Below are positions 29,507 to 45,600 of a stretch of 64,000 nucleotides of DNA, one piece after another; within the stretch, counting starts at the first letter, position 1, and each line of letters opens with the position of its first letter. Both the position numbers and the translations under genes were made by a program. The notes beneath the pieces were generated by a model, which saw nothing but the letters and a program-made list of their open reading frames with translations, was not told the origin of the DNA and made no database searches. Where the stretch lies: NCBI GenBank assembly GCA_016872835.1, contig VGYX01000002.1, forward strand, positions 124,001-188,000. Reading direction: 5' to 3'. The DNA is from Planctomycetota bacterium. GTDB taxonomy: Bacteria > Planctomycetota > Phycisphaerae > Phycisphaerales > SM1A02.

Positions 29507-30735
29507 TCCGGTCCATCGCGATCTACGCCTTCGTGCTCGCGCTCGCGACGGCACCTGACATGGACGCGGTCACGAAAGAGCGACTGCTGAAGTTGGGGCC
29601 GCTGCCCGCGCCCCCAACGGATCCAACCAATCGCTGGAGCGACGATCCGAAGGCGGCGGAACTCGGCCGCTGGCTGTTCCACGAGCCACGGCTCTCGCGC
29701 AACGGCGAAGTCAGTTGCGCCACCTGCCATCAGCCTGAACTCGGGTTTGCGGATGGGCGATCACTTGCGAAGGGACTGGGCACCGGCTCGCGTCACACGC
29801 AGTCGTTGCTCAACGCGGCGCATCAGCGGTGGCTCACGTGGGACGGTCGCGCGGATTCGCTGTGGAGCCAGGCACTGCATCCGTTCGAGAGTCCGCTGGA
29901 GATGGGTCTCTCTCGCGGCGAGGTGATCGAACGCGTGCGTGCCATCGAGCCGCTTCGAACGCGATACGAGTCCGTGTTCGGCGCGTTACCTGCCGCCGAG
30001 GACACAAAGGGCGTCCAGATCGCGTTCGGTCGCGTTGGCAAGGCCATCGCCGCGTTCGAGCGGCGGCTGGTCACGGGTCCCGCCCCGTTCGATCGCTGGC
30101 TCGAGGCGGTGCGTGCGGGACGCGACGCACCGATCGACGGATTCGGTGCCGACGCGATCCGCGGGGCGCAGCTGTTCGTCGGGAAGGCGGACTGCGTGCG
30201 CTGCCACACAGGCTCGTTGCTCTCCGATGGTGAATTCCATCTCATCGGTGTCCCCTCGAAGGATGGGGGCTTGCCGACCGATCGAGGTCGACTCGACGGC
30301 GTCGATCGCCTTCGCAAGGACCCGTACAACGCGGCGAGTCCGCACAGCGACGACCCCAACGGTGCCCGAGCACGCTGGACCGCGGCGACGCAGCCTGACC
30401 CGGAAACATGGGGTCGTTTCCGGACCCCCTCCCTTCGATCCGCGGCCGCTTCGCCTCCCTTCATGCATCAGGGGCAACTGGCCTCGTTGGAGGACGTCGT
30501 TCGCTTCTACGACACGCTTGAGGGCGCGACATCGCTGGACCACCATTCCGAGCGGGTTTTGGAGCCTTTGGCGCTCTCGGAACAGGAGCGCTCGGATCTC
30601 GTCGCGTTCCTCAAGGGGGTGCATGGAACCCCGCCGGACAGGACCGTGTGGAATGATCCTTGGCCAGATCGACCCCCGGAATTGGTTCAAAAAACGGGGG
30701 TTGGTGCTTCCCCACAGGCCATTCCGGGACCATGA
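29503..30735 (+). CDS. Di-haem cytochrome c peroxidase/MauG-like protein
   Basis: 410 residues, GTG start in the frame that opens with a signal peptide (VIRSIAIYAFVLALATA). Two c-type haem motifs are present: CATCH near residue 69 and CVRCH near residue 231, in the spacing of the bacterial cytochrome c peroxidase/MauG family. Supporting segments: LGRWLFHEPRLSRNGEVS, FADGRSLAKG, HTQSLLNAAH, FRTPSLRSAAASPPFMHQG and the terminal LSEQERSDLVAFLKGVHG. It could be a peroxidase or a MauG-type protein-modifying oxidase; the neighbouring NHL protein may be its partner. Periplasmic. Confidence 0.88.
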   Translation: MIRSIAIYAFVLALATAPDMDAVTKERLLKLGPLPAPPTDPTNRWSDDPKAAELGRWLFHEPRLSRNGEVSCATCHQPELGFADGRSLAKGLGTGSRHTQSLLNAAHQRWLTWDGRADSLWSQALHPFESPLEMGLSRGEVIERVRAIEPLRTRYESVFGALPAAEDTKGVQIAFGRVGKAIAAFERRLVTGPAPFDRWLEAVRAGRDAPIDGFGADAIRGAQLFVGKADCVRCHTGSLLSDGEFHLIGVPSKDGGLPTDRGRLDGVDRLRKDPYNAASPHSDDPNGARARWTAATQPDPETWGRFRTPSLRSAAASPPFMHQGQLASLEDVVRFYDTLEGATSLDHHSERVLEPLALSEQERSDLVAFLKGVHGTPPDRTVWNDPWPDRPPELVQKTGVGASPQAIPGP

Positions 30736-30805
30736 TAGAAGGGTCTCCGGTCTGTCCGGGGGCTGTCACTTGACCCACGACTCCAAGCTAAGGGACCCGA
30801 TCGCG

Positions 30806-33097
30806 ATGCAAAGCTTGCTCAAGACCTGTTTCATGCTCGGCGCTTCGTTGGCAGCGCTGTGCGTCACCGCGTTCGCGCACGAAGGCGATCCGAAACTGCG
30901 TGACTACAAGGGAGCGGTGCAAGCGCCGGTGTGGCTTGCGGATCAGGCGGATCCGGTGGCGGAAGCCGCGCCCAGCTTCCAGAGCAACGGCGTCCGGCTG
31001 ATGGCCTGGTTCCCGGTCACCTCGTTCAACGCGGCCAACACCAGCGGCAACGACGTGTGGGGATACGTCAGCCCCTCGGGTCGTGAATACGCGCTCATGG
31101 GACTTTCCAACGGCACGGGCTTCGTCGAGGTGACGAATCCCGGATCTTCCCAGATCATCGCGTTCATCAGCGGCCCGTCCAGTCTCTGGCGCAACGTGAA
31201 GACCTACCAGAACTACGCCTACTCGGTCAGCGAGGGTGGTGGTGGCATTCAGGTGTTCAACCTGGCGAACATCGACAACGGTGTCGTGACGCTGGTGAAC
31301 ACGGTCGATGCCGGCGCCGCCACGCCCGCGACGCACACGATGATCATCAACGAGCAGACCGGCTTCCTGTACCGCATGGGCGGTGGATCGAACGGTCTGC
31401 GCGTCTACACGCTGAAGCCGACCACGGCGGCACCCTCGGCGAGCGCGACCAACCCAGTGCTGGTCGCGAGCTGGACCACGAAGTACACGCATGACGGAGC
31501 CGTGTTCAACTGGACCACGGGTCCGTATGCGGGCAAGGAGATCTTCTTCGCGTGCGGCGGCCTGAACGGCGGCCAGACCGACACCGGCGTGGACATCCTG
31601 GACGTCACGAACAAGTCCGCGATCACCGTCATCGGGCGCTTCACCTACTCGAACTCGAACTTCTGTCATCAGCTCTGGCTGAGTCAGGATCGGCGCTACG
31701 CGTACATCAACGACGAGCTCGACGAGGACAATCGCGGCATCTTCAACGTGGGCCGCATCATGGACATCGCGAACCTGGCGTCGCCAGTCGCGGCAGGCAC
31801 CTACACGACGGGCCTGCGCGCCGTCGATCACAACGAGTACGTCCACAACAACCTGCTCTTCTGCAGCAATTACACCACGGGACTCCAGATCTTCGATCTG
31901 ACGAATCCTGCAAGCCCGCAGCGCACCGCATGGTTCGACACGCATCCCAACGATGACGCGTCCCCGACGGCGTCGTTCAACGGTCTCTGGAGCAACTATC
32001 CATACCTTCCCTCGGGCACGATCCTGGGGTCCGACATCGAGCGCGGACTGTTCGTCTGGAGACTTGGCGTCGATCCGGCGACGGTGTCGCTCGTAGGCCC
32101 CGTGCGCACCGAGTTCGATCCGCGTGGTCAGGGGATCCAGGTCGACGTGACCACGAATCCTGGCTTCAGCGTGACTTCGGACGGCGTGTTGCTTCGGACC
32201 ACGGTCGCCGGCGTGACGACCGAGACGCCGCTGCAGCAGGTGTCCGCCACGCGATGGGGCGGGCGCGGCCCGTCGTACGCATGCGGTGCCGAGATCGAAT
32301 GGAACGTAGAGGCCTTCGTGAGCGACGGCACCTCGGTCAAGTACCCGGCCGCCGGGACGCTCCGATCGCTCGCGGCGACCTCGAACGAGATCACGCTCTC
32401 TGACTTCTGCGAGATCGCCACCGGCTGGACGGTCGGCCTGGCGGGCGACAACGCGACGGCGGGCATCTGGACGAACGCCGATCCGGTCCCCACCGCGGCG
32501 CAGCCCGATGACGATCGTTCCGTGAACGGCGTGCGGTGCTGGGTGACGGCCAATGGCCCGGTGAACGGATCGCTTGGAGCCGCCGACGTCGATAATGGCA
32601 CGACGACGCTGACCTCGCCGACCTACTCCGTGGCCGGCCTGAGCGATCCCTACATCTCCTACGCACGCTGGTACAGCAACAACCAGGGCGGAGACCCGAA
32701 CAACGACTCGATGCCGATCCAGATCTCGGGCAACGGTGGCTCGACGTGGGTGCAAATCGAGCTCGTCACCGAGAACGCGGGCGCTTGGGTCGACAAGCAG
32801 TTCCGCGTGAAGGACTTCGTCACCCCGACGGCGAACACGGTGCGCCTGCGCTTCATCGCGCGCGATCTTGGCGCCGGATCGGTGGTGGAGGCCGCGATCG
32901 ACGACGTGCAGGTGCGCGACCTGGTGTGTCCAACGGGGCCCGACGGCGATCTCGATGGTGACGGCGGCGTCGGCCCCGGCGACCTGGCGGTCTTGCTGCT
33001 GGATTTCGGCGACTGCCCCGGCTGCTCGTCGGATCTGGACGGCAGCGGCACGGTCGACAATGGCGACACCGCCCTCCTGCTCCTCCTCTTCGGCTGA
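30806..33097 (+). CDS. Secreted choice-of-anchor B (LVIVD) protein with dockerin-like repeats
   Basis: 763 residues. Signal peptide (MQSLLKTCFMLGASLAALCV...AFA), then HEGDPKLRDYKG, the conserved opening of the choice-of-anchor B family. LVIVD-type propeller repeats run to about residue 430: YALMGLSNGTGFVEVTNPGS, VDILDVTNKSAITVIGRF and LQIFDLTNPASPQRTAWFDT. A beta-sandwich region follows (about 440-710). The C-terminus has two calcium-loop repeats, DLDGDGGVGPGDLAVLLLDF and DLDGSGTVDNGDTALLLLLF, of dockerin type common in planctomycete secreted proteins. Tail repeats suggest surface attachment or sorting. A truncated tandem copy follows directly. Confidence 0.88.
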   Translation: MQSLLKTCFMLGASLAALCVTAFAHEGDPKLRDYKGAVQAPVWLADQADPVAEAAPSFQSNGVRLMAWFPVTSFNAANTSGNDVWGYVSPSGREYALMGLSNGTGFVEVTNPGSSQIIAFISGPSSLWRNVKTYQNYAYSVSEGGGGIQVFNLANIDNGVVTLVNTVDAGAATPATHTMIINEQTGFLYRMGGGSNGLRVYTLKPTTAAPSASATNPVLVASWTTKYTHDGAVFNWTTGPYAGKEIFFACGGLNGGQTDTGVDILDVTNKSAITVIGRFTYSNSNFCHQLWLSQDRRYAYINDELDEDNRGIFNVGRIMDIANLASPVAAGTYTTGLRAVDHNEYVHNNLLFCSNYTTGLQIFDLTNPASPQRTAWFDTHPNDDASPTASFNGLWSNYPYLPSGTILGSDIERGLFVWRLGVDPATVSLVGPVRTEFDPRGQGIQVDVTTNPGFSVTSDGVLLRTTVAGVTTETPLQQVSATRWGGRGPSYACGAEIEWNVEAFVSDGTSVKYPAAGTLRSLAATSNEITLSDFCEIATGWTVGLAGDNATAGIWTNADPVPTAAQPDDDRSVNGVRCWVTANGPVNGSLGAADVDNGTTTLTSPTYSVAGLSDPYISYARWYSNNQGGDPNNDSMPIQISGNGGSTWVQIELVTENAGAWVDKQFRVKDFVTPTANTVRLRFIARDLGAGSVVEAAIDDVQVRDLVCPTGPDGDLDGDGGVGPGDLAVLLLDFGDCPGCSSDLDGSGTVDNGDTALLLLLFG

Positions 33098-33114
33098 AAG
33101 GTGTGCACGTCTCC

Positions 33115-33731
33115 ATGCGGACCACCCTTCGCCTCGCGCTTCTGGCGCTGGTCATGTCGAAGGCCACGTTCGCCCATGAGGGTGACCCCAAGCTTCTCGA
33201 CTACAAGGGCGCGGTGACCGGTCCCGCGTGGCTGGCCGACCAGCAACCCGAGGGCGACAAGGCCGCGAGTCCGTTCCGTTCCAGTGGTGTGCGTCTGATG
33301 GCGTGGTTCCCGGTGGCGTCCTTCAAAGCGGACAACACCAGCGGAAGCGACGCGTGGGGATATGTCAGTCCCTCAGGTCGCGAGTACGCGCTGATGGGGC
33401 TCTCCAATGGAACCGGATTCGTGGAAGTCACGAACCCAGGCTCGTCGCGGATCATCGCGTTCATCAGCGGCCCGCCCAGCCTCTGGCGCAACGTGAAGAC
33501 GTACCAGAACTACGCCTACTCGGTCAGCGAGGCTGGTGGCGGCATGCAGGTGTTCAACGAGGCGCAGCCGGATGATGATCACTCGACCACCGGCACGAAG
33601 TGCTGGCTCACCGGCAATGGACCCCCGGGCCGCGCGGCGTTCTCGCCGGATCTGGATGGTGGCACGACGACCCTGACCTCTCTGGCGTGGATGGCGGTGA
33701 CATCTCGCTGCTCCTGCTGCTCATGAACTGA
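33115..33731 (+). pseudogene. Internally deleted tandem copy of the choice-of-anchor B protein
   Basis: A decayed paralogue of the gene at 30806. From the ATG at 33115 it keeps a signal peptide, HEGDPKLLDYKGAV and about 145 residues parallel to the intact copy (YALMGLSNGTGFVEVTNPGS is identical in both). It then jumps at MQVFN to EAQPDDDHSTTGTKCWLTGN, which corresponds to residues about 560 onward of the intact protein, an in-frame loss of about 411 codons. After TTTLTS a second loss of about 420 bases joins to the final dockerin repeat in the wrong frame. Read in the other frame the end gives DLSGVDGGDISLLLLLMN, stop at 33729-33731, while the current frame stops at 33724-33726. A 203-residue secreted product is still possible, but the propeller is gone. 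Confidence 0.8.
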
Positions 33732-34523: not shown

Positions 34524-35808
34524 TCGTCGAGCCTTCCTTGGAGGCGCCTTGATCGCCGGCGCCGCGATCGCCGGGCCCGTCGTGCGCGCCGTCGCCGCGG
34601 TGGCTCCTGCCACCGGCAGCGACCAGATCAAGGTGGTCGTGGTGGGTTGCGGCGGGCGAGGCACCGGCGCGGCCATGCAGGCGCTGAAGGCCGACCCCGG
34701 CGTGGTGATCTGGGCGATGGCCGACGCGTTCGGTGACCGCATCGACACCGCCATCCTGGAACTGCAGAAATCCTCCATGGTGGATCGCGTGCAGGTTCCG
34801 CCCGAGCGTCGCTTCACCGGTTTCGACGGGGTGACCAAGGCGTGCGCCAGCGGCGTGCAGGTGGCGATCCTGGCCGCTCCTCCCGGTCTCCGCCCGGATC
34901 ATCTACGTGCGGCGGTCGACGCGGGCCTGCACGTCTTCTGTGAGAAGCCGATGTTCGTGGATGCCGCCGGAGCGAAGCGCGTCATCGAGTCGGCTCGCGC
35001 CGCGCGCGCCAAGAACCTGAATCTGGTGAGTGGATTCTGCTGGCGCCGCGCCGCGCCGGAACGCGAGCTTTTCCGACGCGTCGCGGACGGGCAGATCGGC
35101 GATGTCGTGGCGATGCACAGCGACTACCTGACCACCCCGCTCGGCGTGCAGATGCGCCGCCCGGAGTGGACCGACATGGAGTTTCAGCTGCGCAACTGGC
35201 AGCACATGGTCTGGCTGTCCGGCGACTTCATCGTGGAGCAGGCCGTGCACAGCATCGACAAGATCAACTGGGCTTTCGGCAACGAGCCGCCCGAGCGATG
35301 CACCGCGGTCGGCGGGCGTTCGCTACGCGAGCCGATTCCCGAGCGCGGCGATGTGTACGACTACTTCGCCGTGGTCTACGAGTGGCCCGGCGATCGTCGC
35401 GCCACGCTGATGTGGCGGCAGTATCCCGACAGTTTCAACGAGAATGTGGACACGATCATCGGCACCAAGGGTCGCGCGTTCGTGAATGGCTGGGCGCCCG
35501 TGCACCGCATCACCGGCAACGCGAACTGGATCCGATCGAAATCGGCATCTCGACCGAACATGTACCAGGTCGCGCAGGACGAGCTTTTCCGCGCGATCCG
35601 CACGGGCGAGCGCATTGACGACTCGGACTGGATGGTGCAGAGTTGCCGTCTGGCGCTCATGGCGCGCATGGCGGCCTACACCGGGCAGGCCGTCACTTGG
35701 AAGGACGTGCTGGAGAGCCGGGAGGATCTGATGCCGGCGACGCTGGCGATGGACGCGCCGCCCCCGGTGCCGACGATCCGGCAGCCGGGTCGGACGAAGC
35801 TCGTTTGA
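34495..35808 (+). CDS. Tat-exported Gfo/Idh/MocA family oxidoreductase
   Basis: 437 residues. The N-terminus has a twin-arginine signal (DRRAFLGGALIAGAAIAGPV), usual for planctomycete members that act outside the cytoplasm. The NAD(P) Rossmann motif is VVVVGCGGRGTG. Further family motifs are the HVFCEKPMFVD segment (the EKP Lys) and the GDFIVEQAVHSIDKINW region with substrate-side His. Sugar or polyol dehydrogenation is the family role; substrate unknown. ATG at 34495 is supported by an AAGGAG Shine-Dalgarno 7 bases upstream. The last 116 bases overlap the 3' end of apbE on the other strand. Confidence 0.88.
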   Translation: MEPSQPQCPDRRAFLGGALIAGAAIAGPVVRAVAAVAPATGSDQIKVVVVGCGGRGTGAAMQALKADPGVVIWAMADAFGDRIDTAILELQKSSMVDRVQVPPERRFTGFDGVTKACASGVQVAILAAPPGLRPDHLRAAVDAGLHVFCEKPMFVDAAGAKRVIESARAARAKNLNLVSGFCWRRAAPERELFRRVADGQIGDVVAMHSDYLTTPLGVQMRRPEWTDMEFQLRNWQHMVWLSGDFIVEQAVHSIDKINWAFGNEPPERCTAVGGRSLREPIPERGDVYDYFAVVYEWPGDRRATLMWRQYPDSFNENVDTIIGTKGRAFVNGWAPVHRITGNANWIRSKSASRPNMYQVAQDELFRAIRTGERIDDSDWMVQSCRLALMARMAAYTGQAVTWKDVLESREDLMPATLAMDAPPPVPTIRQPGRTKLV

Positions 35809-36766
35809 TCGAGTTCCATGCTCCGGTGCTATGCACACCACCATCCTTCACGCGCCGGTCGATGCGAGCGGCGGTCGTGGCGGTCTCGGCCACCGACAAC
35901 GCGTCCGCGATTGGCAGCGTGCAGAGCGCCGTGGCGATCGCATCGGCGGTGGTGGCATCCTTGGCGATCACGGTGGCTTGACGGAGTGACGGAACCGGAA
36001 GCGGACGCCCATTCGAGGGGTCCACGATGTGTCCAATGGTTTTCGCACCCCCCGCGACGGGCTCCGCTTGCACACGATCGCCACTCGTGCTGACCCCCAC
36101 GTCATGCAACAGGAGCGTTTCTGCTGCCTGGCCATCGACGCCCGGGGCGACCTCGATGCGCCAACCGGCCTCGCCGGGTGGCGCCGCGCCCAGTGCGATG
36201 TCGCCACTCACGTCCACGAGCGCCTGTGGCACGCTCGCCTCGCGCAAGGCAGCCAGTGCATCGTCAGCGGCCAGACCACATCCAATCCCGCCGAAGTCCA
36301 TCCGAACGCCGTCACGCTGCGCGATGAAGGTGGACGTGTCCTTCATCCACAGCCACGCGTTCCAGCCCGCGCACGCCACGGCCTGCGAGAGCGCCGCATC
36401 GCTCGGCATCGAGCCGCTGCGTTGGGCCTCGCGCCAAAGTCGGGTGAGCGAGCCGAGTCCCGCATCGAACCCGCCGCGCGTCACCTGCGCAAGTCGCCAC
36501 GAGGTGTCCAGCGCGTCGCGGAGTCGACCCTCCACATGCTGCGAGGCGCCCGCCCGGCTTGGTAGCCGCTGCGCAGGCGTGTCAGGGCGCCAGTCACTGA
36601 GGGCGTCATCCCAGGCACGCACGCGGTCAAACGCGGCGCGCGCCGCTGCGGCCGCACGTGACGCATCCTCGGCATGAAGCACGATGCGAACCTCCACGCC
36701 CAAGTGGACCTCGCGGAATTCGAAGCGACCAGACAGCGACGCGGCGACTAATGCAAGAGCGATCAT
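35693..36766 (-). CDS. apbE: FAD:protein FMN transferase (ApbE family)
   Basis: 357 residues. ApbE attaches FMN to Thr/Ser of partner flavoproteins. Visible: ALSDWRPDTPAQRL, GGFDAGLGSLTRLW, MDFGGIGCGLAADDAL, VDVSGDIALG, VGVSTSGD, GHIVDPSNGRPL and DATTADAIATALCTL with the metal-binding Asp/Thr. The usual Lys in the GGIAKG loop is Cys/Gly here (GGIGCG), a deviation. The N-terminus is a short hydrophobic stretch (MIALALVAASLSG), a minimal signal. In-frame sequence upstream stays hydrophobic (AVVILWA) but offers no start codon. The last 37 residues are low complexity, encoded antisense to the oxidoreductase gene. Confidence 0.88.
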   Translation of the reverse strand: MIALALVAASLSGRFEFREVHLGVEVRIVLHAEDASRAAAAARAAFDRVRAWDDALSDWRPDTPAQRLPSRAGASQHVEGRLRDALDTSWRLAQVTRGGFDAGLGSLTRLWREAQRSGSMPSDAALSQAVACAGWNAWLWMKDTSTFIAQRDGVRMDFGGIGCGLAADDALAALREASVPQALVDVSGDIALGAAPPGEAGWRIEVAPGVDGQAAETLLLHDVGVSTSGDRVQAEPVAGGAKTIGHIVDPSNGRPLPVPSLRQATVIAKDATTADAIATALCTLPIADALSVAETATTAARIDRRVKDGGVHSTGAWNSIKRASSDPAAGSSAPGAARPSPASPASDPPGSPARPSK

Positions 36767-36813
36767 GGCCCATAATATAACAACGGCGCCGCGACCAGCG
36801 CAATGGAGATCAT
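36763..36813 (-). CDS. Possible 16-residue coupling peptide upstream of apbE
   Basis: A tiny frame (MISIALVAAPLLYYGP) whose ATG overlaps the stop of the REC-PP2C gene (ATGA) and whose own stop overlaps the apbE ATG (ATGA). Such a chain of 4-base overlaps is what translational re-initiation looks like elsewhere in the window. It may be a coupling leader, or chance within a 43-base gap; no protein-level evidence exists. Confidence 0.3.
   Translation of the reverse strand: MISIALVAAPLLYYGP
36774..36779 (-). promoter_or_regulatory. Putative -10 (TATATT), apbE
   Basis: TATATT ends 7 bases before the apbE ATG at 36766, and TTGCGC lies 18 bases further upstream as a possible -35. This is the most AT-rich stretch of the region, so apbE may have its own promoter beside read-through from the chemosensory operon. 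Confidence 0.5.
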
Positions 36814-37994
36814 GCTTGAAAGCGTAGTTCCAGCACGCTCACGTCGTCCTTGAAGTTATCGGATGCTTGCACGGTCCGCGCATGCGCCAGCATCTCGTCG
36901 AGATCCTGATTCGGTCTCGCCGCCACCGCGTGCAGATACTCGTCCAGCGTGGCCATGGGACCACCGGGCTGCTGCAGTTCATAGATGCCGTCGCTGTACA
37001 GCAGCAGACGTGATCCGGGTTGCATGATGATCTCGTCGGTGTCGTACGGTACGCCGGCCGCGGCGCCGATCATGAGGCCCTGCGAATCGAGTCGGGTCAG
37101 CGAACCGTCCGGCGCGATCAGCACCGCGGGAGGGTGGGCACCGCCGCTCCAGCGAAGCGAGCCGGTCTGCACGTCGAGAATTCCGTACCACAACGTGAAG
37201 AACATCTCGTTGTGACGCTCCATCGGGAAGAGCTCGTTGAGCCCTTCCATCACGGCACCGGGTTCTCCCATGTCGCGGCCCGGGAGGGCGCCGGAGTGGA
37301 TCACGTTCATCGCGCTCACCCCCAGTAGCGCCGGACCCACGCCATGGCCACAGACGTCAAGCAGGTAGATGGCGAGCCGCCGCTCATCCAGCCAGTGATA
37401 GCCGAACGCGTCGCCCCCCAGGCTCTCGCTTGGAACGAACCGCCAGTCGGCGCGCGCAGGACCGTCGGTCAGAGGAGGCGGCAGGAGACTGCGTACGTAC
37501 TCCGCCGCGCGACGCACCTCGTTCTGCAGATGTTGTTCGCTCTTCGCCAGGGCGGCGAATGCCGCGTTGCGCTCGCGAAGCGCCTTGTAGCCCTCGCTGT
37601 GGTGGCGGAGACGCGCGATCATCTCGACCGGATCGGGCAGCTTCACCAGATAGTCGTTCGCGCCCAGCGCGAAGGCCTTCGCCTTGGTCTCCGCCTCCTC
37701 CTTCGAACTCAGCACGACCAGTGGAACATCCTTCAGTTCGGGACGCTCGCGATAGGCGCGAACAAGATCCAACCCATCAATTCCGGGCATCACGAGATCC
37801 TGCAGGATCACGGTCGGCTTCAGGGCGACGGCCTGCTCCACCGCCTGGCTCGGCTCGGCGCAGAAGTGAAATTGCCACTCGGTCTGACCCGCGAGGATCT
37901 TCTTTACGGCGGCGCCGATGATCGGCTGGTCGTCGACCAGAAGTATCACGGTCGGCAGGGCGATCATGGATGGCTTCAGCACGGTCTGGCTCAT
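36810..37994 (-). CDS. Response regulator with PP2C (SpoIIE/RsbU-type) phosphatase output
   Basis: 394 residues. Receiver domain at 14-130: DD21-22, phospho-acceptor Asp66 in LQDLVMPG and Lys98. A short coiled coil follows (about 135-165), then a PP2C-type Ser/Thr phosphatase of the SpoIIE/RsbU class with GGDAFGYHW, LLDVCGHGVGPALL, LRWSGGAHPPAVL and RLLLYSDGIYE supplying the metal-binding Asp/Gly set. Such proteins dephosphorylate STAS anti-anti-sigma factors in partner switching. It occupies the place that WspR (REC-GGDEF) has in Wsp operons. Its ATG overlaps the cheB stop by 4 bases, so it is the direct output partner of this CheA; the STAS target is not in the window. Confidence 0.92.
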   Translation of the reverse strand: MSQTVLKPSMIALPTVILLVDDQPIIGAAVKKILAGQTEWQFHFCAEPSQAVEQAVALKPTVILQDLVMPGIDGLDLVRAYRERPELKDVPLVVLSSKEEAETKAKAFALGANDYLVKLPDPVEMIARLRHHSEGYKALRERNAAFAALAKSEQHLQNEVRRAAEYVRSLLPPPLTDGPARADWRFVPSESLGGDAFGYHWLDERRLAIYLLDVCGHGVGPALLGVSAMNVIHSGALPGRDMGEPGAVMEGLNELFPMERHNEMFFTLWYGILDVQTGSLRWSGGAHPPAVLIAPDGSLTRLDSQGLMIGAAAGVPYDTDEIIMQPGSRLLLYSDGIYELQQPGGPMATLDEYLHAVAARPNQDLDEMLAHARTVQASDNFKDDVSVLELRFQA

Positions 37995-39016
37995 GGGCGA
38001 TGAATTCCCGATTCGGAGAAGTGGGCAAGTATGGCCGGGCCAATCTGGTCGACCCCAAGCACGCGCGTGGCGGCGCCGCATTGGACCGCCGCGCCCGGCA
38101 TGCCCCAGACGACGCTGGTGTCCTGATCCTGCGCGAGCGTCGTCCAGCCCGCTCGGCGCAGCGCAAGCAGCCCCCGCGCGCCATCGGTGCCCATGCCCGT
38201 GAGGATGGCCGACACACCGGGCTGAAGGCCCGCCCGCGCCGCACTCTCCAGAAGGGCGTCAACCGAAGGTTGGTGTATGTCGGATGGTGACCCCGCCTGA
38301 TGTCGGAACGCGCAGTCGGAATCAAGAACGAGATGCTGGGAACCCCCGGCGAGGTACACCGTTCCTGCACGGGCTGCCTGCCCCGGCTCCGCAATCTTGA
38401 CCTTGTGATGGCACTCGCGGCCCAGCCACTCGGCCAGGCCCGGCACGAAACCCGCGTCCAGGTGCTGCACGATCACCGCGGCGAAAGGCAGCGGCTCGGG
38501 CCACGTCAGCAGGACACGGCGAAGCGCCTGCGGGCCACCGGTGCTGGCTCCGAGAAGGGCGGGGGTCGGCAGGGGCTGGCTTCCCGCCCTTGGCGCGGAC
38601 ACCACAAGGCTTGCGGTGGCCGCGACCACCGGTCGGGAAAGCCGCACGATCGTCTGGATGCGCTTGCACAGCCGTTCGACGCCCGCGGGATCGTTCAGGT
38701 TGGGCGTGTCGATCGCGTCAAGCGCGCCGGCGCCAAGCGCCTCGAACACCCTCGCCGCGTTGCCGGTCACGGTCGCGGTCACCACAAGGATCGAACAGGG
38801 TGCCTGCTGCATGATGCACCGAGTCGCCTCCACGCCGTCCATCACCGGCATGATGAGGTCCATCAGCACGATATCCGGTCGATCATGTGCGCACCTCGCC
38901 ACGGCCTCGGCGCCATCCATCGCCGTCCAGGCGACCGTCGCTTCTGGTATGCGCGCCACCGTGCGTCGCAACGCTTCAAGCGCGATCGGAAGGTCGTTCA
39001 CCAGGCCGATCCTCAT
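37991..39016 (-). CDS. cheB: CheB-type receiver/methylesterase (WspF-like)
   Basis: 341 residues. Receiver domain with acceptor Asp53 (IVLMDLIMPVMDG), then the methylesterase domain with the full catalytic triad: Ser158 in LLGASTGGP, His185 in VIVQHLDAGF and Asp278 in ILTGMGTDGARG. It removes methyl or amide groups from chemoreceptors and resets the array. Its presence with a CheR implies a methylated receptor somewhere in the genome. Overlaps cheA (ATGA) upstream and the REC-PP2C gene downstream. Confidence 0.95.
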   Translation of the reverse strand: MRIGLVNDLPIALEALRRTVARIPEATVAWTAMDGAEAVARCAHDRPDIVLMDLIMPVMDGVEATRCIMQQAPCSILVVTATVTGNAARVFEALGAGALDAIDTPNLNDPAGVERLCKRIQTIVRLSRPVVAATASLVVSAPRAGSQPLPTPALLGASTGGPQALRRVLLTWPEPLPFAAVIVQHLDAGFVPGLAEWLGRECHHKVKIAEPGQAARAGTVYLAGGSQHLVLDSDCAFRHQAGSPSDIHQPSVDALLESAARAGLQPGVSAILTGMGTDGARGLLALRRAGWTTLAQDQDTSVVWGMPGAAVQCGAATRVLGVDQIGPAILAHFSESGIHRP

Positions 39017-41301
39017 GGCGCGGCCTCCCCGATCAGATCCGCGATCGTGCGCGCGAACGTCTGGTCCTGGAAGGAGCCCTTCGTCAGGTAGGCGTTCGCC
39101 CCGGCTTCAAGCCCCGCCGCGCGATCCTCGGCACGATCCTTGTAGCTCACGATGGCCACCGGAAGGTTGGTGAAGCGCGGATCACGGCGCAGCATGCGGA
39201 CCAGTTCGATTCCGTTCATGCGCGGCATGTCCACGTCGGTCACCAGCAGATCGAAGGTGCCGGCACACAGCTGGTTCCATGCGTCCATCCCGTCCACGGC
39301 CACCTCGACGTCGTGGCCGAGTCGTCGAAGCAGTTGTCGTTCCACTTCGCGCACGGTGATCGAGTCGTCCGCCACCAGCACCCGCCTTCGCGCACGGGCA
39401 TCTCCGGACAGCGTGCCGGCCGCGACGCCCCGGATCGCACCATCGGACAGGCCGCGTCGAATCGAGACCAGGAGGTCCTCCACATCCATCACGAGCACCG
39501 GCAGGCCGTCGTCGTCGATGGCTGCAGCGGCGACCCCGGGCACCCGCCCGAGTCGCGCATCCAGTGGACGCACCACAAGATCGCGCTCGCCCAGGAACCC
39601 GTCCACCGCCAGCGCGGTGCGTTCGCCAGCGCCTCCCACCACCAGAAGGCTCACCATGCCGTCACGCCGGAGGGAATCGCCGCCCAGCGCCAGCAGTTCC
39701 GAGGCGCGAAGCACGCCGATCGCCTGTCCATCCAGCTCGAACTGCAATCGGCCCTCGACGCGCTGCAGCGCATCCTGTGGCAGGCGAACGATGCGCTCGA
39801 TGCGCGCAAGCGGGAAGGCCAGCGTCTCGCCGCTGACACGAACCAGCGCCGCGCGGATCACGCTCAGGGTGATAGGCAGGCTGAGCACGAAGGCGGTGCC
39901 CGCGCCAGGCTCGCTCTCGATGCGCACCGATCCACCAAGCTCGCGCAAGGTCTGGTGAACCACATCCAGCCCGACGCCGCGGCCACTCACCTCGGTCACG
40001 GCGCTCGCGGTGCTGAATCCCGGGAGGAAGAGGAACTCCAGAAGTTCGACACGCCCAAGGTCACGCGCGACCGCCTCGGACTGCAGGCGGCGCTCGATCA
40101 CCTTCGTTCGGATCCGTTCCGGATCAATGCCCGAGCCGTCGTCGATCACGCGCACCTCGAGCATGCCCGCCCGATGGCGAGCCTGCAGCCGCAGGCTTGC
40201 CGACGCGCTCTTGCCGGCCGTGCGACGCCGATCCGGTGCCTCGACCCCGTGATCCATCGCGTTGCGCAGGAGATGATTCAGCGGCGCATCGAGGCGCGCC
40301 AGGATGTCGCGGTCCACCGGCGTCCGCTCGCCGTCGATCTCGAAACGCACCTGCTTGCCGAGCATCTTCGCCAGATCCCGGATCATGCGGGGGAAGCCCG
40401 CGCACGCGTCACCGAACGGTCGCATGCGGCTGCCGATCACCTCGTGGTACAGGCGGGTGCCGACCTCCTCGGTCCTTCGGAACGTGGACTCGAGCAGTCC
40501 CGTGTGATGCGAGAGCGCCTTCTCGAGCGTCGCGAGCTGGCGACGCGCCTCCTCAAGCTCCGGCGCCGCGCCAGCGGACTCGACGACCTCGCGCGTGATT
40601 CGAAGACGGCTCTTGAGTTCGCGAAGGCCGCGCTGCACCTGCGGGTAGCGGCGACCCTCGACCATGCTCTCGCCGGCCAACCGCATCAGCCGATCCAGAT
40701 TGTCGGCGTTCACGCGAACCGTGCGCACCTCCTGCGAGGGCGCCTCGGCAGGTCTCGGTCGCGCAGGCGAGGGCTCACTCGGCGGCGTCACGTCGGAGGG
40801 CGCGACGGGCTGCGAAACGCGAACGACCGCCACCTCCGGGTCCGCGCGTGCGTCCGGCTTCGCAACCACCGGTGCCGAAGATTGCGTGGCGGGTGGATCG
40901 GCGGACGCCGGCGCCGAGAGGGCGGTGACCAGACCGTTGATCTCGGCGGCGTGACCCGCGCTCCACGCGGGGAGGTCCGCCTCTCGGAGTCCCGAGAGCT
41001 GCGTCAGCAGGTCCGTCGCCTGCAACAACTGGTCCACGCGTGCGGGAGTGCATGCTTCCATGCCCTTCTGCACACGCACCATCGCGTCTTCCATCTGATG
41101 CGCAAGGCCTACCACCACGTCGATGCCGACCACGCGCGCGGCGCCCTTGATCGAATGGGCCGCACGCATCAGTCCTGCGATCGGTGCGGGATCGGCCACG
41201 TTCGCCTCCAGCGCCAGGAGACCAGCGTTCAGCGCGGCGCCATGGGTCTCCACCTCGCCCTTGAAGAGTTCGAACAAGTCGAGGCCGCCCAGATCGCTCA
41301 T
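39013..41301 (-). CDS. cheA: CheA-type hybrid histidine kinase with C-terminal receiver (WspE-like)
   Basis: 762 residues. Hpt domain with phospho-accepting His49 (MRAAHSIKGAARVVG), then an Ala/Pro-rich linker without a recognisable P2 domain (about 120-195). Dimerisation helices follow (NLDRLMRLAGESMVEGRR). The HATPase has NHLLRNAMDHGVEAPDRR (N box), IDDGSGID and GRGVGLDVVHQTL (G boxes). A CheW-like P5 domain is at about 500-630. A receiver domain at about 640-755 has RVLVADDSITVREV, acceptor Asp in LLVTDVDMPRMNG and Lys in VSYKDR. The fused receiver is the hallmark of WspE/FrzE-type kinases. ATG at 41301 overlaps the cheW stop by 4 bases. Confidence 0.95.
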   Translation of the reverse strand: MSDLGGLDLFELFKGEVETHGAALNAGLLALEANVADPAPIAGLMRAAHSIKGAARVVGIDVVVGLAHQMEDAMVRVQKGMEACTPARVDQLLQATDLLTQLSGLREADLPAWSAGHAAEINGLVTALSAPASADPPATQSSAPVVAKPDARADPEVAVVRVSQPVAPSDVTPPSEPSPARPRPAEAPSQEVRTVRVNADNLDRLMRLAGESMVEGRRYPQVQRGLRELKSRLRITREVVESAGAAPELEEARRQLATLEKALSHHTGLLESTFRRTEEVGTRLYHEVIGSRMRPFGDACAGFPRMIRDLAKMLGKQVRFEIDGERTPVDRDILARLDAPLNHLLRNAMDHGVEAPDRRRTAGKSASASLRLQARHRAGMLEVRVIDDGSGIDPERIRTKVIERRLQSEAVARDLGRVELLEFLFLPGFSTASAVTEVSGRGVGLDVVHQTLRELGGSVRIESEPGAGTAFVLSLPITLSVIRAALVRVSGETLAFPLARIERIVRLPQDALQRVEGRLQFELDGQAIGVLRASELLALGGDSLRRDGMVSLLVVGGAGERTALAVDGFLGERDLVVRPLDARLGRVPGVAAAAIDDDGLPVLVMDVEDLLVSIRRGLSDGAIRGVAAGTLSGDARARRRVLVADDSITVREVERQLLRRLGHDVEVAVDGMDAWNQLCAGTFDLLVTDVDMPRMNGIELVRMLRRDPRFTNLPVAIVSYKDRAEDRAAGLEAGANAYLTKGSFQDQTFARTIADLIGEAAP

Positions 41302-41849
41302 CCGGCGGCTCCTTCCCAACCATGCAGGAGCGCCTCGGTCTGCAGCACGGCGACCTGCTCGCCCTCGACCTGCGCCAGCAAGCGCGTGGCGGTTCCAAGG
41401 CCGCGACGAAGCGTCGTCGGCGCGGGCGCAAGCTCGCTTGCGGCTGTGCGCACCACGCCATCCACGGCATCCACCTGAAAGGCCCAGCCGTGGTGTTCCG
41501 GGCCGACCACGATCATTCGGGCTGCTGGTGAGGGCGGGGGCGTGGCAGGCCCAAGATCGAGCAGGCGTTCCAGCGATCCCACGAGCAGCAGCTCGCCCCC
41601 ATGGGCGACCAGCCCTCGAAATGCGGGTCGATCGCGATGCGGCACGCGTCGCACGGGCAACGCGGCAAACACCTGCTGGACGTCCTGCGCAGACACCGCG
41701 AACCGCTCTCCGGCGCACCGGAAGCACAGGAGCGGCTGTAGTGCGCCGGGGTCCTCTGAGAGCGGCGCGGCCAGTGCCGCGGTCTGCGCCTCGATGGCCG
41801 ATTCGCTCAGGCGTGCACGCGCGGGAAGGTCAGGTGTGTGGGCGCTCAT
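41298..41849 (-). CDS. cheW: CheW-type adaptor, second copy (WspD-like)
   Basis: 183 residues. A CheW SH3-like fold begins after a 35-residue N-terminal extension: LLCFRCAGERFAVSAQDVQQ, VPHRDRPAFRGLVAHGGELL, VVGPEHHGWAFQVDAVDGVV and VAVLQTEALL. CheW links CheA to receptors. The two CheW-like genes flank the CheR-TPR gene, as WspB and WspD do. ATG at 41849 overlaps the cheR stop (ATGA). Confidence 0.88.
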   Translation of the reverse strand: MSAHTPDLPARARLSESAIEAQTAALAAPLSEDPGALQPLLCFRCAGERFAVSAQDVQQVFAALPVRRVPHRDRPAFRGLVAHGGELLLVGSLERLLDLGPATPPPSPAARMIVVGPEHHGWAFQVDAVDGVVRTAASELAPAPTTLRRGLGTATRLLAQVEGEQVAVLQTEALLHGWEGAAG

Positions 41850-43003
41850 GTTGCGTCGCCTCTCAAGACATGAGCCGCCCGCATACGCATGCGCGCCGAA
41901 GCTGTTCCATCGCCGCGTTCCTCCGCGAACATGCTGAGTTGAAGGAGCGCAAGGGCATGATCCGGATGCAGATATACCACCTTGCGGAAGCAGGCCTCGG
42001 CTTCGACCGAAGCTCCGCGCGCCAGATGGGCCGAGCCCAGAAGCTGCCACGCTTCGACATCGATGGGGTCGGACTGCACGATCCGCTCCAGAATCCCGAT
42101 CGCTTGATCAAGATCGCCGGCGTCGGCGAACTCCTGCGCCCGCGTCAGCGACGGCACTGCCGGCGCCATGGGGGCCACGGCCGTCGGAGTCGCGATGGGA
42201 CCGAGACGTGTGCGCGATGGCGCTGCCTGCGGCTGCTCGTGCAAGGGATCGAAGCGTTCAAGGGCGAACGCTCCGGCAACCGCGATCGGCCGGAATGCGT
42301 CGGACCAGAGCCGTGGTGGATCGGCGTGCCCGAGACACAGCAGCCCTCCCATTTGGGTGCTTGTGGCAAGATTTCGCGCGAGTCTGTCACGCGATATCTC
42401 GTCCAGATAGATCGCCACGTTCCGGCAGAACACGATGTCGCAGTCGAGTGGCATGCGTTCGCCGGTGATGTCGTCATGAACCCAACGGATCATCGCCATC
42501 GCTTCGGGCACCAGCTGCAGCGAACCATTCGAGTCGGTCTGGAAATGACGGGCCGCCCACGCAGGAATCGCGCCGCGCTGCGCCAACGGAGGACAGGTTC
42601 CGGTTGCGGCACGACGCAGATTCTCCTGGTTCCAGTCCACGGCCACGATCTCGCATGTCAAGGCATCGCGACCAGCCTCGCGTGCGGATGCGGCCAGAGA
42701 GAACGCCTCCGCGCCCGTGGCGCAGCCGAGACTCAGGATGCGAGCCTTTCGCGGCCCCACGGATCGCAGTTGCGATCGTGCGCAATCGAACGCGGGCAGA
42801 TGCCGAAAGAGCCAGGTCTCCGCGGGCACCGCGACGGCCAGCACCTGCTCCAGCACGCTGGGATCGTCCTGAAGCGTTTCAAGGAACGTCGATTCACTCA
42901 CGCGTGCCGCATTCGCCAGGCGGCGCGCCTGATCGATCGCGTGCTGCAGCACGTTCTGCTGGAGTGGCAACTTTGATCGCAGCCAGCTTTCCAGAGCGTT
43001 CAC
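41846..43003 (-). CDS. cheR: CheR methyltransferase with C-terminal TPR (WspC-like)
   Basis: 385 residues, GTG start overlapping the cheW stop (GTGA). SAM-dependent receptor methyltransferase: PAETWLFRHLPAF, SAM-binding LSLGCATGAEAFSLA, IVAVDWNQENLRRA, and the DIVFCRNVAIYLD motif IV. The N-terminal helical domain is short. After a Pro/Ala linker (about 265-290) come tetratricopeptide repeats (RAQEFADAGDLDQAIGILER, GSAHLARGASVEAEACFRKV, then LHPDHALALLQLSMFAEERG). The CheR-TPR fusion is the diagnostic feature of WspC-class proteins. Confidence 0.93.
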   Translation of the reverse strand: MNALESWLRSKLPLQQNVLQHAIDQARRLANAARVSESTFLETLQDDPSVLEQVLAVAVPAETWLFRHLPAFDCARSQLRSVGPRKARILSLGCATGAEAFSLAASAREAGRDALTCEIVAVDWNQENLRRAATGTCPPLAQRGAIPAWAARHFQTDSNGSLQLVPEAMAMIRWVHDDITGERMPLDCDIVFCRNVAIYLDEISRDRLARNLATSTQMGGLLCLGHADPPRLWSDAFRPIAVAGAFALERFDPLHEQPQAAPSRTRLGPIATPTAVAPMAPAVPSLTRAQEFADAGDLDQAIGILERIVQSDPIDVEAWQLLGSAHLARGASVEAEACFRKVVYLHPDHALALLQLSMFAEERGDGTASARMRMRAAHVLRGDAT

Positions 43004-43488
43004 GGGTGTGAGCCCGGCAGCGTCGACAAGGAGGATGAACCCTGCAGCAGTCCTGCATGCTGCGCGGCAAGACGGGCCGCATCCAGCACCAGGACATCGC
43101 GATGATCCACGCGTGCGACTTCGCGGATGAACGGCAACTCCGGCAATCCGTTCCTGGCGGTCCAGGAGCCGTCACGGTCCAGCGTGGCGGGCGCGTCCAC
43201 CGTGTCAACCAAAGCCCCGAAGACGGCGCGTCGCCCTTCGGCGGAGCCGTCGATCGGCCCCTCCAGCAGGAGAATGCGCGCGCCCAGCGTCGGTTCCACG
43301 GCGGGTCCGCCCAGAAGCATGCTCAGATCCACCGAGGGGATGAGCGTTCCGTGGTAGTTCAGCAGGCCGCGAATCCAGGGTGGCGCCCCTGGCACCTCCC
43401 GAAATCGCACCATCGGACAGACCTCGCGAACCCACGAGAGGTCCACGGCGAGATTCCGTGCGCCGACGGTGAATTGCAGACACCGCAT
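43000..43488 (-). CDS. cheW: CheW-type adaptor, first copy (WspB-like)
   Basis: 162 residues. MRCLQFTVGARNLAVDLSWV opens a CheW domain; REVPGAPPWIRGLLNYHGTL is the conserved P5/CheW interface segment and IPSVDLSMLLGG follows. It is the first gene of the chemosensory run. A TATCCT hexamer sits exactly 6 bases before its ATG, which places the operon promoter here rather than upstream of the HD-GYP gene. That gene ends 32 bases earlier and could still read through. Confidence 0.9.
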   Translation of the reverse strand: MRCLQFTVGARNLAVDLSWVREVCPMVRFREVPGAPPWIRGLLNYHGTLIPSVDLSMLLGGPAVEPTLGARILLLEGPIDGSAEGRRAVFGALVDTVDAPATLDRDGSWTARNGLPELPFIREVARVDHRDVLVLDAARLAAQHAGLLQGSSSLSTLPGSHP

Positions 43489-43520: not shown

Positions 43521-45305
43521 TCAGTCCGGATGCGCCGCGCGCAGATCACGCAGACGATCCAGCAGCGCGAAGAAGATCTCGACAAGTTCCGGGTCAAAGT
43601 GGCGCCCAGATTCGCCCCGGATGAGATTCAGCACGGGCTTCTCGACCCACGGCTGCTTGTACGCGCGCGCGCTCTGTAGCGCGTCGTACACGTCGGCAAG
43701 CCCGACGATTCGCGCGAACAAAGGAGTCTCCTCGCCGCGCTTGCCGCCGGTGCGGGGCATTCCGCTGCGCGGATCCTTCAATGGCCGACCTTGCAGGTCG
43801 ACATGTCCCGGGTAGCCCGTCCCATCCCACCGCTCGTGATGGTTCAGCACCACGTCACGGGCGGCCTCGTCAAACTCGGTGGGGTGATCCATGTCCATGA
43901 AGAAGCGCGCGCCAATGATCACGTGCTGGCGCACGTGCACGATCTCCTCCGGCGTCAGCGGTCCCGGCTTGGACAGGATGGTGTCGCTCACGCCGACCTT
44001 GCCCACGTCATGCAGGCGCGCCGCCACCACCAGACGGTCGCGTTGGCGTTCGTACGCCGCGCCCGACAGTCCACGTCGATGGGCCCAAGCCTCGAAGATC
44101 AGCGCGGCCACGCCGGCCACCCGTTCCGCGTGCGGCGCGGTCTCGGCGGGATCGCGCGACGCCGCCATGCGCAGCATGCGCGAGATGATGCTCTCGGCCA
44201 GCCGGCTGCGTTCGATCGCGACCGTCGCCATGCTGGCAAAGTGCCCCAGCAGCACCTGATCCGCCTCGGAGAAGCGGTCCCGCGGCCGGCCGCGCTCGTC
44301 CAGTGCGTTCAGCAACTGCAGCACCCCAAGCGTGCTGCCCATGCTGGTCCGGAGGGGAAGCGCGATCATCGACCGGGTCGCGTACCCGGTGAGCCGATCG
44401 AAACTCGGATCGAAGCGGTAGGGCAGCGAAGCGTCGATGTCGTACGCATCCGCCAGATTCACCGCTTCGCCGCTCATCGCGACCCATCCCGCGATAGATG
44501 TCTCCGTGACCGGCAATTGGTAGGCGTTGAACTTCGCGGCCTCGGGCGCGCGCTTGGAAAGCGTGTCGTTCTGCGCGTAGGCGAATCGGAGGCTGCGCGA
44601 CTCACGCAGGAAGATCGTCCCCGCGTCGGCGCGCAGCAGCGCGCGCGCCTCGCTCAGGATCCGTTCCATGAGCACGTGGAAGTCCTGCAGCTTGTTCAGT
44701 TCCAGGCCCAGCTGGACCATCCGTTCCACCCGGCCGCGCTGCAGGGCGTTGTCGGCCTGCAGCGACGAGCGCATGTGCTGCACGATCTGCCGCATCTCCC
44801 CAAGGTCGCGGTCCCGCTCACGCAGGCGCGTCTGCAGACGCGCGATCGCGGCGTCCGCATCGATGGAGCGTCGCGTGGCGCCTCCGAGCTTGCCAAGGGT
44901 CCGAAGCCTCGCGCGCAGTTCCTCCGGTTCGATGACGCGGGTGACGAAATCCTCCACACCCGCCGAGAAGGCGGCAGCGCGGACCAGCGGATCGTCCGAC
45001 GCGGCGATCGCCAGCGACGGAATGCTCGAAGTCGCAGGACTCGCCTGCAGGCTTCGCAACAGGTCAAAGGGCATCGGATCACCGCCCGTGATGTCCACCA
45101 CAACGACCGATGGCGCGAGTCGCGACACGCGCTCCAGCGCGTCCGCATCCCGTGACATCGTCCGGATTTCATGCTCCGCCGGATCCGCTGCGGCCTGAAC
45201 GAGATCGAGCACCCACGCCTGTCCGGAAACCACGCAGACAAGGATCCGATCCCATGGCGCAGTGGCCTTGAGCTTCGAATCCGCAGCGACGCTTCCGTCG
45301 GGCAT
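43521..45305 (-). CDS. Receiver-GAF-HD-GYP protein (cyclic-di-GMP phosphodiesterase type)
   Basis: 594 residues. A receiver-like N-terminal domain (about 18-140) has PSVVVVDITGGD with an Asp at the acceptor position but otherwise weak receiver motifs. A coiled coil follows (about 145-200), then a GAF domain (about 205-375; ADAGTIFLRE, GWVAMSGEAVNLADAYDI, ALPLRTSMGSTLGVLQLLNA). The HD-GYP domain (about 385-590) is intact: HAERVAGVA, ARLHDVGKVGVSDTILSKPG, VLNHHERWDGTGYP and IVGLADVYDAL. These proteins hydrolyse cyclic di-GMP. It sits directly upstream of the Wsp-like operon. ATG at 45305 is divergent from the 45328 gene with only 22 bases between. Confidence 0.92.
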   Translation of the reverse strand: MPDGSVAADSKLKATAPWDRILVCVVSGQAWVLDLVQAAADPAEHEIRTMSRDADALERVSRLAPSVVVVDITGGDPMPFDLLRSLQASPATSSIPSLAIAASDDPLVRAAAFSAGVEDFVTRVIEPEELRARLRTLGKLGGATRRSIDADAAIARLQTRLRERDRDLGEMRQIVQHMRSSLQADNALQRGRVERMVQLGLELNKLQDFHVLMERILSEARALLRADAGTIFLRESRSLRFAYAQNDTLSKRAPEAAKFNAYQLPVTETSIAGWVAMSGEAVNLADAYDIDASLPYRFDPSFDRLTGYATRSMIALPLRTSMGSTLGVLQLLNALDERGRPRDRFSEADQVLLGHFASMATVAIERSRLAESIISRMLRMAASRDPAETAPHAERVAGVAALIFEAWAHRRGLSGAAYERQRDRLVVAARLHDVGKVGVSDTILSKPGPLTPEEIVHVRQHVIIGARFFMDMDHPTEFDEAARDVVLNHHERWDGTGYPGHVDLQGRPLKDPRSGMPRTGGKRGEETPLFARIVGLADVYDALQSARAYKQPWVEKPVLNLIRGESGRHFDPELVEIFFALLDRLRDLRAAHPD

Positions 45306-45327: not shown

Positions 45328-45600
45328 ATGAGTACCTCGCCGTTGCGACTCGAAGCGCCGATCGACGAGATCGTCCGTCTTGGCGCTGCGCTGTCGGCCC
45401 ATGCGGCGCTTCTGCACGATGGCCGCACGCGCGCCACTGCGCTGCCTGACGCGCTGGGTTCCGACATCCTGATCGACGAGGCACCCGAAGCGAGCCTGAA
45501 CGTGCTCGAGTTCGCCAACGTCGAGCTGCTTGAGTGGATGATCATCCTGCTGATCTCGGCCGAGATCGTGTTCAGCGTGGTGGCGTTCCTGCGGCACTGA
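45328..45600 (+). CDS. Small C-terminally anchored membrane protein
   Basis: 90 residues. A soluble part (LRLEAPIDEIVRLGAALSAH, ALPDALGSDILIDEAPEASL) precedes a single C-terminal hydrophobic helix (LLEWMIILLISAEIVFSVVA). The end, LEW followed by a hydrophobic run with a central Glu, resembles the C-terminal tail of DUF155/RMD1-type proteins, but the rest of that family is missing, so this is either a short relative or a coincidence. It is divergent from the HD-GYP gene. Confidence 0.55.
   Translation: MSTSPLRLEAPIDEIVRLGAALSAHAALLHDGRTRATALPDALGSDILIDEAPEASLNVLEFANVELLEWMIILLISAEIVFSVVAFLRH

Follow-up and report, generated by a model that had tools for sequence, protein, structure and literature searches.

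A Wsp-class chemosensory operon of planctomycetes with a phosphatase response regulator that probably acts through partner switching

We analysed a 64,000-nucleotide stretch of DNA (hereafter the window; positions 124,001 to 188,000 of contig VGYX01000002.1, assembly GCA_016872835.1) from a bacterium of the Planctomycetota. The window belongs to contig C2 of the host assembly, which comprises 2.39 Mb in 46 contigs and is 98.9% complete. On its minus strand, from 43488 to 36810, lies a six-gene run that encodes CheW, CheR-TPR, a second CheW, CheA fused to a receiver (CheA-REC), CheB and a receiver-phosphatase fusion (REC-PP2C). Judged by sequence comparison, this operon is a real, conserved and widespread variant of the Wsp chemosensory system with a predicted phosphatase output. 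Since its last protein ends in a phosphatase rather than in a messenger-making enzyme, the pathway probably acts through partner switching, the best-supported mechanism. With a probability of about 0.72, we read the operon as a Wsp-class chemosensory pathway ('Wsp-P') whose PP2C response regulator would act on a STAS protein via a partner switch. The genes and the domains that underlie this reading are as follows.

43000 to 43488, minus strand: CheW, first copy, 162 aa (Pfam)
41846 to 43003, minus strand: CheR-TPR methyltransferase, 385 aa (Pfam)
41298 to 41849, minus strand: CheW, second copy, 183 aa from the ATG at 41849 (Pfam, scanned with a longer 250-aa frame)
39013 to 41301, minus strand: CheA-REC hybrid kinase of the Wsp clade, 762 aa (Pfam and tree)
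37991 to 39016, minus strand: CheB methylesterase, 341 aa (Pfam; NCBIfam CheB subfamily NF009206 above cut-off)
36810 to 37994, minus strand: REC-PP2C response regulator, WspR-type receiver and SpoIIE/PP2C domain, 394 aa (Pfam, WspR match, conservation, model)
37524 to 37952, minus strand: WspR-type receiver and stalk, REC-PP2C residues 15-157 (identity to WspR of 3i5a and 3bre)
36819 to 37388, minus strand: PP2C phosphatase domain, REC-PP2C residues 203-392 (Pfam PF07228, 136.4 bits)

Open reading frame (ORF) calls and Pfam thus bear out the coordinates, sizes and domains that had been proposed from the letters of the window, and each of the five gene junctions is a 4-bp overlap. The CheA carries Hpt, dimerisation, HATPase and CheW domains and a C-terminal receiver. 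We regard the system as a Wsp operon in which GGDEF has been replaced by PP2C because its last protein has a receiver and stalk of the WspR type. Residues 15-157 are identical to WspR of PDB entries 3i5a and 3bre at 83/143 (58%) and 81/143 (57%) positions, and a PDB search with the receiver returned WspR proteins as by far the best matches (174 and 171 bits), followed by RssB with 103 bits over the full length and by the next ordinary receiver with 57 bits. No GGDEF domain was found by Pfam on the window's response regulator; SpoIIE/PP2C stands in its place, as the sequence-only reading had recognised. Receiver, gene order and CheA clade all agree with the Wsp kinship claimed in that reading. 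The order of the six genes, here and in relatives, is that of the Wsp class (alternative cellular functions, ACF), which is also defined by a methyl-accepting chemotaxis protein (MCP) gene in first place; such a gene is missing from this position in the window and in three other loci of its genus (g1).

The kinase tells the same story. In a tree of 56 CheA cores, 46 Wsp-type rows stood apart from ten others (planctomycete flagellar-type, Acinetobacter, Deferribacter and two Gemmata-like sequences, with class names that we assume for these outgroup rows) with a support of 99/100. The window's CheA lies outside the flagellar-type group and falls with the Wsp CheAs of Azoarcus, Mesorhizobium, Cupriavidus, Variovorax, Novosphingobium and Burkholderia (99/100); the GGDEF rows and Burkholderia form one group at 86/50. 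This tree, from which five long outgroup rows of an earlier version were dropped, does not include Pseudomonas WspE, and deep branching inside the Wsp clade has no resolution, with bootstrap values that had not settled. Among the matches listed, which cover 60 of 447 plasmid records, the 20 nearest plasmid CheAs show 45-50% identity and 425-512 bits, and the rest score at most 278 bits. A gap in scores, together with the tree, led us to reject a flagellar-type or type IV pilus (Tfp)-like class for this CheA. We read six of the nearest plasmid loci, two of which are annotated as Wsp-type operons: L123, as MCP-CheW-CheR-CheW-CheA-CheB-diguanylate cyclase, and L127, in the same order and ending in a PleD-family regulator whose translation is a GGDEF protein. 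Translation gives REC-GGDEF for the regulator of the Novosphingobium, Cupriavidus and Variovorax plasmid loci, and the Burkholderia locus has a WspH-like receiver-histidine kinase.

Within the family, the operon and its phosphatase gene stay together. Across a family set of 151 genomes, 67 carry this CheA (best match of at least 47% identity, with fragments such as those of G139 and G011 included), and 11 carry only a more distant CheA (at most 39%). REC-PP2C was present in 39 of 41 family loci from 15 genera, always inside the cluster and in L076 as a partial gene at a contig end; in the other two loci (L019, L056) the contig ends before its position. The linkage is therefore not due to chance, and the proposed check of whether the gene stays with the che genes came out in favour at every testable family locus. 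L059 and L062 lack a recognisable CheR. In the two g36 loci (L088, L089) neither CheR nor CheB was recognised, with CheW, CheA and REC-PP2C still together; these are perhaps a version without adaptation.

The sequence-only reading had counted the absence of a receptor as a feature of the system. The first part of that statement stands, as there is no MCP gene within the operon of the 64-kb window. The absence is a trait of the window's genus and not of the system. Of the 41 family loci, 31 (from 12 genera) have an MCP gene ahead of the first CheW; no such gene turned up in this place in the four g1 loci (the window, L051, L052, L053) or in L070, L084, L088 and L089, and contig ends cut the relevant position in L019 and L076. 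MCP genes occur in 66 of the 67 genomes with this CheA versus 15 of the 84 without it, and 10 of those 15 carry the more distant CheA. A search of the host genome (E <= 1e-20, with 7 of the 23 first-look candidates scored) yielded a single CheA, and MCP signalling domains were found in that genome only in two tandem genes on contig C27. The first is cut by the contig start; the second is complete, has HAMP and MCPsignal domains (Pfam) and matches the operon MCPs of relatives with 35-42% identity, near full length in most loci. The stop and start of the tandem genes (L042, 1-3139) overlap, and they share an identical stretch, reported as 300 nt, which may reflect recent duplication, gene conversion or an assembly effect.

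Beyond the family, 12 of 13 loci of the phylum with a WspR-type REC-PP2C (L130-L142) have CheA and CheB linked to it, L133 being the exception. By record titles, REC-PP2C occurs with a Wsp-type operon in Planctomycetota, deltaproteobacteria (Desulfoferrobacter, Desulfovibrio, Smithella), Chlamydiales, Elusimicrobia, Lentisphaerae, Acidobacteria, Ignavibacteriae, Verrucomicrobia and one gammaproteobacterium, or about eight phyla, mostly as metagenome-assembled genomes. Our wider set consists of 80 loci from named genomes among the matches listed (577 relatives), some with short flanks; it gives no output frequencies because REC-PP2C was the bait. Where at least 1.5 kb of upstream sequence was available, CheB lay directly upstream of REC-PP2C in 41 of 77 loci, and 49 of the 77 contain a Wsp-type CheA; REC-PP2C lies ahead of the MCP gene in some, Gemmata-like, loci.

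Other evidence concerns the phosphatase itself. Receiver residues D21, D22, D66 and K118 and PP2C residues D195, D213, S334-D335-G336 and D383-D384 are invariant in 22 of 22 aligned relatives; among them, D195, D213, D335, D383 and D384 are the Asp residues expected to be catalytic in a PP2C phosphatase. In an AlphaFold model of REC-PP2C (mean predicted local distance difference test score 92.9, predicted template-modelling score 0.73), a single helix, 122-170, joins the domains. The best fold matches of this model were Pseudomonas aeruginosa RssB chains (ranks 1-4), followed by other RssB chains and WspR (ranks 5-10) and then by RsbU-domain, SiaA and SpoIIE structures. SiaA of P. aeruginosa, one of these fold matches, has its PP2C in a Ser/Thr phosphorylation pathway; it is itself a membrane sensor and is not known to be driven by a CheA.

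What points to STAS proteins as the target is the neighbourhood of the same gene elsewhere. In L133, from another planctomycete family, a REC-PP2C of 51% identity is directly followed by STAS and RsbW-like genes (Pfam), with no che genes in the 19.9 kb of that locus. In L136 a Wsp-PP2C operon is followed by RsbW-like and STAS-like genes on the opposite strand, recognised through similarity alone (E 4e-6 and 7e-7). Eight of the 80 further loci have a STAS and/or RsbW-like gene no more than 2 kb from REC-PP2C: L153 (Desulfoferrobacter suflitae), L169 (bacterium SM23_31), L192 and L200 (Acidobacteria), L193 (Methylococcaceae), L216 (Kiritimatiellae), L217 (Verrucomicrobiaceae) and L219 (Opitutales). 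L153 and L169 have full Wsp operons alongside these genes, and in D. suflitae DRH4 the receptor, kinase, phosphatase, STAS and RsbW-like genes stand together. Eight of the eleven STAS/RsbW-like genes of the eight loci were put to Pfam and all eight passed. Such matches were about 16 times denser within 2 kb (11 in 294 kb) than farther out (2 in 873 kb), as counted with profiles refined on the same loci, which carry no bias to nearness but are not independent of them. L122 (kinase, REC-PP2C, STAS) and L144 were set aside, as their receivers are ordinary ones.

The host genome holds the parts of a partner switch, as the search of the whole genome suggested by the sequence-only reading revealed: four SpoIIE-type PP2Cs, five STAS proteins and two RsbW-like ATPases above cut-off, with both ATPase genes adjoining a STAS gene. 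None of its STAS or RsbW-like genes is next to the che operon. One of the STAS proteins, STAS_C4, and its neighbour kinase score best against the linked-partner profiles; because the margin is small, we name no STAS partner for this genome. On contig C19 (L048, 1-2326), STAS and RsbW-like genes directly follow a gene that reads like a secretin, a possible further partner-switch site.

Several observations weigh against a partner switch driven by this operon. No STAS or RsbW-like gene lies within 2 kb of REC-PP2C in 72 of the 80 wider loci, some of which have short flanks. Within the family, the operon has no STAS or RsbW-like gene as a recurrent neighbour; few non-operon neighbours recur at all, none in more than four genera (antisense frames of operon genes set aside), so a linked STAS partner within the family was rejected as a candidate, and one STAS-like ORF upstream of the MCP gene of L068 is the exception. 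We also compared the 151 genomes for two of the host's five STAS genes: STAS_C4 occurs in 43 of 67 genomes with the system versus 63 of 84 without it (Fisher p 0.16) and STAS_C2 in 32 of 67 versus 35 of 84 (Fisher p 0.51), and so neither is associated with the system. Finally, of the 34 wider loci with at least 8 kb on each side, 22 have a Wsp-type CheA near REC-PP2C and 12 do not, a looser linkage than within the family. The missing family linkage and the two unassociated STAS genes are what one would expect if the substrate of the PP2C were a Ser/Thr phosphoprotein other than a STAS protein, leaving the pathway chemosensory without a partner switch. We consider this unlikely, given L133, L136 and the eight wider loci, where REC-PP2C has STAS and/or RsbW-like genes next to it.

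The other two alternatives leave the phosphatase idle or secondary. If the phosphatase domain were a binding adaptor with its catalysis unused, as in RssB, the receiver would govern binding to a sigma factor or another protein, and P. aeruginosa RssB indeed heads the fold matches and aligns in sequence over the full length. The invariant catalytic residues, the WspR-type receiver and a score of 101.6 bits on the NCBIfam RssB model, far below its cut-off of 700, disfavour such an adaptor and make it highly improbable. The least probable of the readings is that the main output is still cyclic di-GMP (c-di-GMP), with CheA acting mostly through HD-GYP proteins and REC-PP2C as a secondary branch. 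It draws on a gene, absent from the sequence-only reading, that ends 32 bp before the first CheW gene on the same strand, and on a second WspR-type receiver of the host genome (contig C3), fused to HD-GYP. The adjoining gene is this one:

43521 to 45305, minus strand: pseudo-receiver, GAF and HD-GYP protein, 594 aa (Pfam; receiver 27.6 bits, below the cut-off of 30.2)

Its product keeps intact HD-GYP motifs, yet its receiver is degenerate; the C3 protein keeps the acidic pair, Asp and Lys of the receiver but lacks the HHE motif of HD-GYP domains and is unlinked to the operon; and 39 of 41 family loci have REC-PP2C as their linked regulator. The adjoining gene, which keeps this place in each of the four g1 loci and in two from g26, is perhaps co-transcribed with the operon. 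With HD-GYP proteins both beside the operon and on a WspR-type receiver, the output in this genome is probably PP2C with a possible HD-GYP branch. The earlier proposal that a partner-switching output was swapped in for c-di-GMP is thus still the best reading as to partner switching, with STAS and RsbW-like neighbours elsewhere, but goes too far in discarding c-di-GMP.

In the partner-switch pathway that we favour, transmembrane MCPs (those of contig C27) and the CheW proteins would control CheA, and CheR-TPR and CheB would adapt the receptors by methylation. CheA would phosphorylate Asp66 of the WspR-type receiver in REC-PP2C, and phosphorylation, via the long helix 122-170, would probably alter the dimer and switch the phosphatase on. 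The phosphatase would then strip phosphate from a STAS protein previously phosphorylated by an RsbW-like kinase, and the dephosphorylated STAS protein would bind that kinase or another partner and change the partner's activity. An HD-GYP branch that lowers c-di-GMP may run alongside. Observed are the genes and domains, the kinship, the conserved catalytic residues and linkage, and the STAS or kinase genes next to REC-PP2C in other lineages; the phosphotransfer, the activation of the phosphatase, its STAS target in this genome and the role of the final partner are our inference.

We also asked which outputs the WspR-type receiver carries. A receiver-only search of 392 planctomycete genomes (E <= 1e-25) returned 24 such receivers in 19 genomes. 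Of the 23 examined (all but G005:C19), 18 are fused to PP2C, four to HD-GYP (G028, G025 and the host genome by Pfam, G045 by similarity and sequence) and one forms a histidine kinase-receiver (G260, closing a Wsp operon); GGDEF was found on none of the 23. Given this, and given that REC-PP2C accompanies Wsp operons in about eight phyla, the receiver may be an exchangeable plug of one old chemosensory class, joined in different lineages to PP2C, GGDEF, histidine kinase, HD-GYP or a nucleotide-cyclase-like domain. On this reading, which we would sooner doubt, the PP2C/partner-switch output would match or exceed the c-di-GMP output in age and spread, and the latter would be derived in one branch. 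Two deltaproteobacterial loci (L166, 7654-8208; L212, 8359-8904) carry, ahead of REC-PP2C, another WspR-type receiver on a domain that reads like a nucleotide cyclase, so that one Wsp operon would hold two different outputs. In two Methylococcaceae loci, L170 (497-931) and L193 (672-1121), a Wsp operon has a WspR-like regulator with a degenerate GGDEF motif (labelled GGDEF in the trees), and a divergent REC-PP2C gene is also present, followed by STAS in L193; here an output is perhaps being replaced.

Around the operon, an ApbE gene (35693-36766) is the downstream neighbour. A small ORF of 90 aa on the plus strand (45328-45600), divergent from the HD-GYP gene, has a C-terminal membrane-like segment and may be a fragment. 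Farther off, a short gene (33103-33726) resembles parts of its larger neighbour (29939-33097) with the middle missing and looks like a truncated duplicate.

What is new is a variant of a known system. It shares gene order, CheR-TPR, CheA-REC, the WspR-type receiver and stalk and the CheA clade with the Wsp systems of Pseudomonas and others that use WspR; it differs from them in carrying PP2C in place of GGDEF (diguanylate cyclase) and, in the window's genus, in an MCP gene outside the operon. The available text of a 2021 survey of beta- and gammaproteobacterial Wsp systems states that all appear to use WspR or WspH (PMC8552884). As in the window, the WspH system of Burkholderia, of which L125 shows the gene, puts a WspR-type receiver on a non-GGDEF domain, but that domain is a histidine kinase and not a phosphatase (PMC8552884). 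The sequence-only reading had called the system undescribed. This is too strong, because fusions of a receiver to a family 2C protein phosphatase were tallied among the regulators of cheR-TPR (ACF) clusters in 2012 (PMC3447774), and because another chemosensory class already has partner-switch genes in its clusters: those of F7 stage 1 include anti-sigma factor antagonists and a serine phosphatase (PMC7184735), and Shewanella Che1 has CrsR and CrsA (PMC9855816). In the portions of these sources available to us, the 2012 tally lists the same type of regulator with no WspR-type receiver and no STAS/kinase link, and its main text does not contain the word planctomycet; the F7 clusters and Che1 place chemosensory genes beside partner-switch genes, as in our STAS-linked loci, but the F7-type clusters carry CheY and CheD, in contrast to CheR-TPR, CheA-REC and the WspR-type receiver-PP2C fusion of the window. 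CheA classes and the receiver in ACF systems are covered, in the part available, by PMC10782961. Among the literature matches listed, with few subscription papers, we found neither a WspR-type receiver joined to PP2C nor a planctomycete Wsp system described.

Wsp is a textbook route from surface sensing to c-di-GMP, and the 2021 survey knows two outputs for it. A third, phosphatase output in many groups would link a methylation-adapted receptor array to partner switching, on whose logic many stress and sporulation controls rest. D. suflitae DRH4 is a named organism with all the component genes together. If the reading is true, one receiver has moved between outputs with the type of kinase kept constant, which offers a test of receiver specificity.

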